DNA of 33,269 nt from assembly GCA_022510605.1 (NCBI GenBank), contig JAFLTB010000028.1, positions 1 to 33,269 of the forward strand. Direction: 5' to 3'. Positions within the stretch are counted from its first letter, which is position 1. Each line of letters begins with the position of its first letter. The notes below the pieces were generated by a model. The model was not told the DNA's origin and searched no databases. It saw only the letters and a program-made list of their open reading frames with translations. Of the stretch, positions 15,608-17,295 are shown piece after piece. The translations under genes and the position numbers were made by a program. The stretch comes from Lachnospiraceae bacterium. GTDB taxonomy: Bacteria > Bacillota > Clostridia > Lachnospirales > Lachnospiraceae.

Positions 15608-16333
15608 ATGACAGATAAGATTTTAGGAAACAATCAGGTTAATGTTTATGGTGAAGTGGTAAGTGAGTTTACCTTCAGCCATGAAGTGTACGGGGAAGGT
15701 TTCTATTTGTTGAAACTTTCGGTAAAGCGGTTAAGCAAGGTATATGATACCATTCCGCTTATGGTATCCGAGCGTTTGGTGGATGTGACAAAAGATATTC
15801 GTGGGTGTTTTATGGAGGCCAGCGGACAGTTCCGCTCCTATAACCGGCACGAGGAGAACCACAACCGGTTAGTGTTGTCGGTCTTTGTGCGGGACTTACA
15901 TATTGATGAGACAGAGCAGGAAAATGAGAAGCCAAATTATATTTTTCTGGACGGTTATCTGTGTAAACCTCCCGTATACCGCAAGACACCATTGGGACGG
16001 GAGATTGCAGATCTTCTCATGGCGGTAAACCGCCCTTATGGAAAATCCGACTACATTCCATGTATCTGCTGGGGGAGAAATGCCCGTTATGCCGATGGAT
16101 TTGCCGTAGGCGAGCATGTGCAGTTATGGGGGCGGATTCAGAGCAGAGAGTATCAGAAGCAGATTGCCGAGGAGCAGTATGAAACCAGAGTAGCATATGA
16201 AATCTCGGTGAGCAAACTGGAATGTGTGGAGGAGAGCGGCGAGATAACAGCAGCTTCCGAAATATCCGAGGAAACGGCGCCGGAGGAAGATGTGTCCGAG
16301 GGGATGTCCGGGGATTCTTATGAAACAATTTGA
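15608..16333 (+). CDS. Single-stranded DNA-binding protein-like, two OB-fold domains
   Basis: This 241-residue protein looks like two SSB-type OB folds in tandem. The first (about 8-100) runs from QVNVYGEVVSEFTFS through FYLLKLSVKRLSKVYDTIPLMVS. The second (about 115-205) has IFLDGYLCKPPVYRKTPLGREIADLLMAVNR, then YIPCICWGRNARYA and VGEHVQLWGRIQSREYQK, which are close to classic SSB blocks. An acidic tail (206-241) follows but ends GDSYETI rather than the DDDIPF-type tip that recruits partner proteins. It probably binds single-stranded DNA, but it is unlikely to be the sole replicative SSB, which is normally about 150 residues and sits beside rpsF/rpsR. The ATG follows a strong AAAGGGGG site. 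It is a single gene with its own promoter; function is inferred from the domain resemblance. Confidence 0.72.
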   Translation: MTDKILGNNQVNVYGEVVSEFTFSHEVYGEGFYLLKLSVKRLSKVYDTIPLMVSERLVDVTKDIRGCFMEASGQFRSYNRHEENHNRLVLSVFVRDLHIDETEQENEKPNYIFLDGYLCKPPVYRKTPLGREIADLLMAVNRPYGKSDYIPCICWGRNARYADGFAVGEHVQLWGRIQSREYQKQIAEEQYETRVAYEISVSKLECVEESGEITAASEISEETAPEEDVSEGMSGDSYETI

Positions 16334-16357
16334 AATATTTTGAAAATGTGATATAAT
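16330..16357 (+). promoter_or_regulatory. Promoter reading into the palindromic element and the cobO-like gene
   Basis: TTGAAA at 16330-16335 (overlapping the upstream stop codon) and a consensus TATAAT at 16352-16357 are 16 bases apart. The start would be near 16364. The whole element at 16377-16561 would therefore be the 5' leader of the cobO-like mRNA. Confidence 0.6.
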
Positions 16358-16376
16358 TGTGTCCATGTGAATATTA

Positions 16377-16561
16377 CCTGGGTTTTTAATCTTGTGTGTA
16401 AAAAGCACTCATCACATTTAGTGATGAGTGAATATCCGCCAGAATCGCACTCGGAAAACTCGTTTTCCAGATGCCATTCTGGTGGCTATTGACATCGCCG
16501 CTTTGGCGGCGAGTGCTTTTTACACTACAATACAAACTTTTAACAAAATAAAAAACCCAGG
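16377..16561. repeat. 185-bp nested, multibranched palindromic element
   Basis: Two closing stems enclose three hairpins. The outer stem is CCTGGGTTTTT (16377-16387) with AAAAACCCAGG (16551-16561), 11 bp perfect. The inner stem is GTGTAAAAAGCACTC (16396-16410) with GAGTGCTTTTTACAC (16511-16525), 15 bp perfect. Inside are CACTCATCAC/GTGATGAGTG (16406-16430), CCGCCAGAAT/ATTCTGGTGG (16436-16485) holding GGAAAA-CTCG-TTTTCC (16453-16468), and CGCCGC-TTTG-GCGGCG (16496-16511). CACTC at 16406-16410 is shared by two stems. A third copy allows GCACTCG (16447-16453) to pair with CGAGTGC (16510-16516), followed by five T. It has no coding potential. It could be a miniature mobile element or a structured leader RNA; I match it to no known riboswitch. 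Confidence 0.75.
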
Positions 16562-16588
16562 ACATATCAAAGAAAGGAATTATAAAAC

Positions 16589-17083
16589 ATGGATACAAGA
16601 CTGATACAGGCGTTTTACGGTCTGGGCAAGGGAAAGACCTCGGCGGCTGTAGGCCAGGCTTTACGAGAAGCCGGTGATGGCCAGCGCATTACAATTATTC
16701 AGTTTTTGAAGGGAAAGGTAGCAGACGAGTTCCAGGTTCTTACCCGATTGGAGCCGGATATTCAGATTTTCCGATTCGATCAGTCTGAGGTAAATTACTG
16801 TGATTTATCTCTTCAGGAAAAAGAAGAAGAGAAGCAGAATATCCTCAATGGGTTTCATTTTGCCAAAAAGGTAATTGAAACCGGGGAGAGCGATATCATC
16901 ATACTGGATGAACTGCTGGGACTGGTGGACTTGGGAATCATCAGCATAGAGGATGTATGTGAACTGCTCCAGATACCGGGTGATTACAAAAAACTCTTTA
17001 TTACCGGAAGCACATTGGCAGAACCATTGATTCCATATATTGATGTGATTTGTGAGATTACATTGCGTAAAGATAATACTTGA
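16589..17083 (+). CDS. cobO: Corrinoid adenosyltransferase-like P-loop protein (CobO/BtuR family)
   Basis: Family members transfer the adenosyl group of ATP to cob(I)yrinate or cobalamin, completing the B12 cofactor. The 164-residue protein has the family P-loop GLGKGKTSAA (residues 11-20), a QFLKGK segment, a Walker-B-like IIILDELLGLVDLGII and a late ITGSTLAEPLIPYIDVICEIT block. Most CobO/BtuR proteins have TGR where this one has TGS, and continue with a C-terminal tail of about 20-30 residues that is missing here. It is thus a short, divergent member, and corrinoid activity is uncertain. The ATG follows AAAGGAAT. It is a single gene with no other cobalamin genes nearby, although B12-dependent metH is in the window. 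Its leader holds the large palindromic element. The stop overlaps the -35 box of the dapA promoter. Confidence 0.72.
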   Translation: MDTRLIQAFYGLGKGKTSAAVGQALREAGDGQRITIIQFLKGKVADEFQVLTRLEPDIQIFRFDQSEVNYCDLSLQEKEEEKQNILNGFHFAKKVIETGESDIIILDELLGLVDLGIISIEDVCELLQIPGDYKKLFITGSTLAEPLIPYIDVICEITLRKDNT

Positions 17084-17108: not shown

Positions 17109-17114
17109 AAAAAA

Positions 17115-17282
17115 GGAAGGCAGAGGTGCGGACGTTATCAGTAGGAGGTCGGACATGTCAGGCATGGAGGAAGGTCTTTGAAAGGGACGTCTGCCGAAGA
17201 GAAAGAGTGCCTGTTCACTCTTTTTCTGGGCATATGGTGAAGAACCATGTGACTGTCATCGAAGGATGGAGTGCTGCTCATA
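17115..17282 (+). promoter_or_regulatory. Lysine riboswitch (L-box) upstream of dapA
   Basis: The leader contains the conserved L-box blocks in order: AGAGGTGCGG (17122-17131), AGTAGGAGG, GAAAGGGA (about 17180-17187), GCCGAAG (17193-17199), and ACTGTCATCGAAGGATGGAG near the 3' side. Between them are the expected peripheral hairpins: AAGAGTG/CACTCTT around 17203-17223, and CATATGGT-GAAG-ACCATGTG around 17231-17251. GCAG (17119-17122) and CTGC (17274-17277) can close P1. The position before dapA fits the known regulon. When lysine binds, the downstream terminator should form and lower expression of diaminopimelate and lysine synthesis genes. The regulatory direction is from family knowledge, not shown here. 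Confidence 0.93.
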
Positions 17283-17295
17283 AAATCAGGATGAT

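Follow-up and report, generated by a model that had tools for sequence, protein, structure and literature searches.

The palindrome analyzed here lies in a window of 33,269 nucleotides (the whole stretch of DNA under study) from the genome of a Lachnospiraceae bacterium. It lies between a single-strand–binding-protein gene (PRK05813 type) and a downstream gene for an ATP:corrinoid adenosyltransferase of the BtuR/CobO type (positions 16589 to 17083, plus strand; PF02572, E = 2e-32), which is followed by a lysine riboswitch (positions 17113-17284; RF00168, 113 bits) and by dapA, downstream of that riboswitch. The cobO promoter, TTGAAA-16-TATAAT with a TG before the −10 box, occupies positions 16330 to 16357 of the plus strand, and the palindrome now sits between this promoter and the cobO ribosome binding site; on both points the initial annotation of this DNA was correct. 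That annotation proposed that the palindrome is a switching leader of the cobO-type gene and offered, as an alternative, a miniature mobile element that had landed at the site.

The whole element spans positions 16377 to 16561 (185 bp, plus strand in the A-to-B orientation), from terminal repeat to terminal repeat. In order, it consists of a diverged left terminal inverted repeat (CCTGGGTTTTTAAT, 16377 to 16390), the 5′ arm of an outer stem (GTGTAAAAAG, 16396 to 16405), hairpin A (CACTCATCAC-loop-GTGATGAGTG, 16406 to 16430), a long central hairpin (16431 to 16490), hairpin B (GACATCGCCGC-loop-GCGGCGAGTG, 16491 to 16515), the 3′ arm of the outer stem (CTTTTTACAC, 16516 to 16525) and a diverged right terminal inverted repeat (CAAAATAAAAAACCCAGG, 16544 to 16561). 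The arms of the central hairpin, AATATGCACCAGAATCGCA...TGCGATTCTGGTGCATATT, are topped by an apical palindrome, GGAAAACTCGTTTTCC (16453 to 16468), that is nearly invariant among the copies in this genome, and a mismatched internal loop pits CTC on the 5′ side (16450 to 16452) against AGA at 16469-16471. The arms of hairpin B contain TTGCCGC/GCGGCAA. When the stems of the initial annotation were reread from the sequence, every one was found fully paired: the closing stems 16377-16387/16551-16561 (11 of 11 positions) and 16396-16410/16511-16525 (15 of 15), hairpin A at 16406-16415/16421-16430 (10 of 10) and hairpin B at 16495-16501/16506-16512 (7 of 7). Folded as RNA, the palindrome has a minimum free energy of −87 kcal/mol compared to −37.2 (SD 3.8) for dinucleotide shuffles, none of 200 of which was as good (z = −13); folded as DNA, it reaches −53.9 (z = −13.2). 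The predicted structure is that of a four-way-junction, or “cloverleaf,” palindrome between transposon-type ends.

The window copy carries a terminator-like site on each strand, two being found where 0.6 would be expected from shuffles. The plus-strand site is formed by 16495-16512 and the T-run of the 3′ outer-stem arm, and the minus-strand site by 16430-16406 and TTTTT from the T-run complementary to the 5′ arm. For two copies the side hairpins were calculated at −14.8 to −15.6 kcal/mol, and among 29 copies the T-run or its complement has stayed intact in 26 at either side. With a T-rich outer-stem arm after each side hairpin, the element is predicted to act as a portable back-to-back intrinsic terminator, which would stop transcription arriving from either side. 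The window copy, having landed in the cobO leader, probably lowers or attenuates read-through into cobO.

The element is a short, noncoding repeat with many copies in one genome, as expected of a miniature inverted-repeat transposable element (MITE). A DNA search of the host genome (G000; 2.72 Mb in 123 contigs, assembly 94% complete) returned 64 matches, both strands counted, which confirmed that other copies exist there. A covariance model was built from 29 complete copies aligned over a 131-position core (the whole element measures ∼185 to 200 bp), and it matches 37 distinct places in this genome, in which further fragments were found at contig ends. The genes flanking the 29 copies, picked by a crude open reading frame criterion, are in tandem at 16 sites, divergent at 6, convergent at 5 and unresolved at 2, an unremarkable distribution. 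Among 39 genomes of the genus, this model, the kind of search that the initial annotation had suggested, matched only 2, the host and G044; the matches in G044 are identical to those in the isolate Lachnospiraceae bacterium HAN043. Three G044 copies are 73 to 76% identical to the window copy and have the apical palindrome TGAAAATATATTTTCA instead of GGAAAACnnGTTTTCC. The remaining one of the four G044 places, L078 (G044:C67), is on a 4.4-kb contig of which the 2.0 kb compared is 99.4% identical to locus L023 of the host genome; it is most likely a misbinned contig in a HAN043-like assembly, and we left it out when testing promoters and running permutations. A pattern scan of genome_contigs gave seven stretches, of which only the three from isolate HAN043 are real copies; the other four were rejected as short matches only, the best covering 20 to 35 bases. 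A DNA search of 40 relatives, a set that did not include G044, gave no match outside the host genome, no match to the element was found in phages and plasmids, and viral contigs gave zero matches.

Several copies are irregular. At G000:C95 (L164, ∼1440 to 1605, also designated L222), a second nested palindrome with the outer stem GGTGTCAAAAG/CTTTTGACACC lies inside an element copy; fragments of this palindrome occur at a few other places, three of them at contig ends, and by eye its outer stem resembles that of the elements in genome G111 from another genus. A half-element at L031 (G000:C47:50877) has a central GGGAAAACT joined without a gap to a terminal-type CTCAAG, as though recombination had taken place between the centre and similar terminal-repeat sequence. 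The copy at L163 (G000:C41:13220) lacks the upper central hairpin and retains hairpins A and B and both ends.

The ends of the element belong to a repeat family with the consensus CTTGAGTTTCCGYATTTT, which also delimits IS4-like insertion sequences of the genus. A 17-mer from this repeat was matched at 11 or more positions by 57 of 77 element ends compared to 26 of 560 random stretches from the same loci, and at 13 or more positions by 41 of 77 compared to 3 of 560. With at most one mismatch, the 17-mer occurs in 22 of the 39 genus genomes, whereas 36 of these genomes lack the reversed control. In many genus genomes the repeat is present without the element core, often at contig ends; a few of the matches fall in coding sequence. 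Three full insertion sequences of 1,505, 1,568 and 1,586 bp are bounded by these repeats; the element has terminal inverted repeats, and its ends are shared with an autonomous transposon of sister species. One of their transposases was tested and proved to be a DDE protein (Pfam DDE_Tnp_1, E = 2e-13, above the Pfam cut-off) in which we can read a Y-2-R-3-E-6-K motif, which we take to be the IS4 signature; its scores against the NCBIfam IS4 models fall below every cut-off (best 51 bits vs. 115). The transposases of the three insertion sequences are 72 to 100% identical to the tested protein, the other two at 74% and 72%.

Target duplications point in the same direction. The 1,568-bp insertion sequence is flanked by a perfect 8-bp duplication, GTTTTCTG, and no duplication was found at the 1,505- and 1,586-bp sequences (two of the three full ones). 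Beside the element, 14 of 33 copies have both ends readable, and in these the direct flanks show 44% identity in the best register compared to 27% for mismatched pairings; 36 registers were tried, and the values of the six best were each reached by 0 to 4 of 2,000 permutations. Individual old copies have degenerate duplications: the candidate pair of the window copy, GAATATTA (16369 to 16376) and ACATATCA (16562 to 16569), agrees at only 5 of 8 positions and is putative. The direct target duplication of the element is seen as this statistical excess and as a clear 10-bp case in another genus (L272), in which the copy is bounded by the direct repeat ATGACAGATA. Inverted flanks showed no excess over the 14 copies, and an inverted flank duplication or fold-back extension, suggested by the extended appearance of L018, L024 and L014, was rejected on this result. 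We found no partner transposase in the host genome (94% complete, 123 contigs), with zero matches to the genus transposase and zero to Pfam DDE_Tnp_1; such a partner would strengthen the assignment to MITEs but is not part of their definition. Because the copies look old and the present genome holds no such transposase, the element is probably immobile now.

A search of 299 genomes of the family, run with stricter filters under which weak matches were lost, matched five: the host and four genomes of other genera, G111, G230, G342 and G163. When seven cross-genus copies were folded freely, they adopted the same plan of an outer stem with inner hairpins, and by eye apices of the form GGAAA[A/G]C..G[C/T]TTTCC are seen in other genera. 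We assembled a set of 13 copies comprising the window copy, three from HAN043, a divergent host copy at C91 and four each from G230 and G111; the eight G230 and G111 copies are 48 to 52% identical to the window copy. In these 13 rows, 92.5% of cells are Watson–Crick pairs compared to 63.4% after shuffling, and 41 of 52 pairs show two-sided changes. The fraction is 90.1% in 18 rows, after addition of degenerate G230 copies and L222, and 89.2% over all 26 sources including G342 and G163; all of these cross-genus figures come from alignments fitted to the model, which inflates pairing. At least one good terminal repeat is present in all four well-kept G230 copies, in none of four degenerate G230 copies and in one of four G111 copies (L277, which by eye lacks a T-run). 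The G342 elements at L266, L270 and L279-L283 are dispersed and have similar architecture, apices such as GGAAAACnnGTTTTCC and quite different, longer ends. The G342 and G163 elements, having other ends, may be convergent.

The position of the window copy between a promoter and the ribosome binding site of a cobO-type gene would suit a leader that responds to corrinoids, or switches otherwise, by mutually exclusive stems, and the alternative pairing noted at the outset is present in this copy (GCACTCG at 16447-16453 with 16510-16516, 7 of 7). Comparison across copies and species does not support such a leader. The strand GAGTGC needed before the T-run occurs in 1 of 29 complete copies, that of the window, and even GTGC occurs there in only 3 of 29, so the switch-like pairings are private to the window copy. 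Of the 29 aligned copies, 28 are found at other sites in the genome. Among 30 cobO leaders including that of the window (L236 being represented by 90 bases only), the core is present in the window's alone and in none of the 29 from other species; a consistent position before cobO is not what the model matches show. Nine of the 30 leaders have a TTGA..-TA.AAT promoter followed by TGTCC, namely that of the window and eight from other species (L235, L238, L239, L240, L242, L243, L244 and L245) in which the element is missing, so that the orthologous sites of relatives are element-free. As already noted in the initial annotation, the palindrome matches no known riboswitch: Rfam places neither a B12 nor any other riboswitch on it, no family reaches its gathering score, and the best subthreshold score, 17.8 bits, compares with a gathering score of 42.6. 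With its copies dispersed, one leader in 30 occupied, the pairing strand in one copy of 29 and no Rfam match, we reject the riboswitch or switching leader as very unlikely, and leaders of this type should not be annotated as riboswitches. The mobile element offered as the alternative is instead upheld by the dispersed copies, the terminal repeats common to insertion sequences, the degenerate duplications and the element-free orthologous leaders. At another locus (L084 vs. L166), G044 has a complete element and the host only a stub of one terminal repeat beside a promoter. The repeat family has also visited the cobO leader independently of the window insertion: a 34-bp relic with both ends of this family and an 8-bp duplication, AAAGAGAG, is present in leaders L260, L261 and L262 (of G024, G020 and G016) and absent from the cobO leaders L249, L250 and L263. 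Movement of the element as a single-stranded hairpin by a Y1 transposase (IS200/IS605 or REP-associated) rather than a DDE enzyme is called to mind by its hairpins with a conserved mismatch, which recall those of REP and IS608, but we think it very unlikely, as long inverted repeats at the termini, together with direct duplications of the target, fit a DDE enzyme, and in relatives these repeats border DDE genes.

Covariation, usually considered to prove that an RNA is functional, is found here, strongly, in a mobile DNA repeat. In alignment A1, 96.1% of 1,501 cells pair compared to 90.9% after shuffling, and two-sided changes affect 25 of 52 pairs (8.0 shuffled), the lower stem of the central hairpin having more such changes than any other part. 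The covariation of the stems, a check proposed with the initial annotation, amounts to 69 double-changed cells compared to 12.5 in shuffles, none of 500 of which was as high, and is destroyed by sliding the partners by one to three columns. Selection on an RNA, whether a stable small RNA made by the repeats or a domesticated RNA regulator, would account for this signal, and hairpin B taken alone (5 G-T, no A-C) and the cross-genus copies (24 G-T vs. 12 A-C, on a strand chosen by a model score that itself favours G-T) lean the same way. Over all helices in the host genome, however, the non–Watson–Crick cells number 30 G-T, 28 A-C and 31 others, a parity of G-T and A-C by which nothing favours RNA of one strand; this parity, the intergenic positions with neighbours in mixed orientations and the patchy spread within the genus make an RNA function improbable in our judgment. 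The parity sits better with a mostly mutational origin, in which the element is still a MITE and polymerase template switching copies arm onto arm with no need for a function of the fold. Template switching in hairpins that copies one arm onto the other is a mechanism described in PMC8794818. The left and right terminal repeats also share copy-specific letters (15 vs. 6.1 expected in 18 copies, 1 of 5,000 permutations; for the host genome alone, 10 vs. 4.8 in 15 copies, 34 of 5,000), and the sides of the internal loop are swapped in 8 of 29 copies, like a spacer inversion. Such correction should nevertheless erase the mismatch just below the apex, where three positions stay unpaired (21 of 87 cells equal, an approximate count in which several GGG-bearing copies are shifted by one) and where, by eye, all three copies of the other species with matches in the genus are mismatched too. 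Nor are adjacent double changes clustered as a sign of template switching (5 vs. 4.1 expected, 791 of 2,000 shuffles as high), and pairing persists at ∼50% identity across genera. We regard a mainly mutational origin as a real possibility with somewhat less than an even chance. That the internal mismatch persists argues for some selection, and the parity in the host genome argues against selection on one RNA strand; what maintains the fold may be selection, correction of one arm templated by the other within the hairpin, or a combination of the two. Because it combines strong covariation, host-genome parity, a persistent mismatch and copy-specific symmetry of the terminal repeats, the element provides a natural test case for selection vs. 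template-switch correction.

The terminal repeats have a marked relation to promoters. We called promoters at 9 or more of 12 matches, reading outward from the terminal repeat, at 63 repeat ends from other species, of which one was too short; the resulting 62 include a few matches in coding sequence that are probably due to chance (e.g., L136, L146 and L150, by eye). Of these ends, 29 abut an outward σ70 promoter whose −35 box starts 11 to 13 bp away, whereas three-base windows at other offsets average 1.0, with a maximum of 3. Were each insertion to have its target promoter at just one of its two ends, a share of about one half would already be close to the maximum. A promoter spacer of 17 predominates (29 of the 42 ends on the promoter side, repeat ends of other species and structured element taken together), and in 34 ends aligned on the −35 box the T and the G before the −10 box are each present in 79%. 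For the structured element, 20 of 77 ends with fewer than 11 of 17 matches were dropped, followed by one passing L078 end, leaving 56, a few of which may be misplaced given that ∼5% of random stretches also pass this threshold. Eleven of these 56 ends obey the rule compared to 0.6 at other offsets (maximum 3), a weaker effect than that of the insertion sequences; with stricter ends (13 of 17), 10 of 41 do so, compared to a mean of 0.44. Next to the window copy there is nothing better than a weak promoter-like match, at offset 11 on the minus strand (9 of 12), and the real cobO promoter lies upstream of this copy. Solo terminal repeats without a core are seen by eye beside promoter-like sequences at L111, L113 and L117 (G044) and L122 (host genome); they are deletion stubs or domesticated promoter elements. 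At L149:1501-1552 (G022), a 52-bp terminal-repeat pair lies between divergent promoters at offsets 12 and 13 and shows no clear direct duplication; instead of an insertion, this pair may be a regulatory palindrome.

Taken together, the data indicate that the element is very probably a nonautonomous DNA transposon (MITE) of ∼185 to 200 bp, moved by an IS4-like DDE transposase and carrying a cloverleaf cargo of back-to-back terminators. In the past, such a transposase would have recognised the CTTGAGTTTCCGYATTTT ends, moved the element in trans and made a short direct target duplication, 8 to 10 bp where readable. The promoter data do not separate targeting from the survival of harmless insertions, but the tight offset favours targeting. 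We tentatively suggest, as an idea that could well prove wrong, that the IS4-like transposons and cloverleaf MITEs of this bacterial family target promoters ∼11 to 13 bp upstream of the −35 box, perhaps through contact with RNA polymerase or a sigma-bound −35 box, and that the folded back-to-back terminators of the MITE are a portable insulator that spread through the genome and was conserved across genera by making such insertions tolerable. Because the family inserts just upstream of −35 boxes, a terminator cargo suits the element: it would insulate the promoter, not break it. The promoter rule, if confirmed, would help to explain how a genome takes dozens of terminator-like repeats and would be an insertion specificity of which we found no description among bacterial insertion sequences in the open-licence literature; outward promoters at a fixed distance from insertion-sequence ends were not found described there either, a weak absence given that only this literature was covered.

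The element shares much with known systems. Like the bacterial MITEs treated in PMC10969869 (Nezha, Chunjie, Correia and RUP), it is short and noncoding, with many intergenic copies, a folded interior, terminal inverted repeats common to an insertion sequence and direct target duplications. It differs from those MITEs, as far as that account describes them, in that its whole interior is a branched, covarying fold whose shape is kept at ∼50% identity across genera and in that two opposed terminator-like sites are built into its ends. BOX, RUP and SPRITE of Streptococcus pneumoniae are likewise families of structured repeats; in the description given in PMC3049150, the terminal repeats of BOX and RUP pair with each other and SPRITE resembles a terminator. 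We see no boxA/B/C modular plan in the element, which sets it apart from BOX as described there, and where SPRITE is an 18-bp duplex plus a U-rich tract (PMC3049150), the element has two opposed terminator-like hairpins flanking a third. The resemblance to the IS4 family lies in a DDE transposase weakly matched by IS4 models and in duplications of 8 to 10 bp, but the presumed partner scores below the NCBIfam cut-offs, and outward promoters lie at a constant spacing from its ends. REP/REPIN palindromes, which are associated with RAYT transposases, are also dispersed, imperfect intergenic hairpins; the element is much larger and has long terminal inverted repeats and duplications. Like a cobalamin riboswitch, the window copy lies in a leader that precedes a corrinoid gene, whereas neither that family nor any other in Rfam matches it at the gathering score. 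By the features tested, the element is a MITE; it is unusual in how deeply its structure is conserved and in the rule by which its parent family inserts beside promoters.
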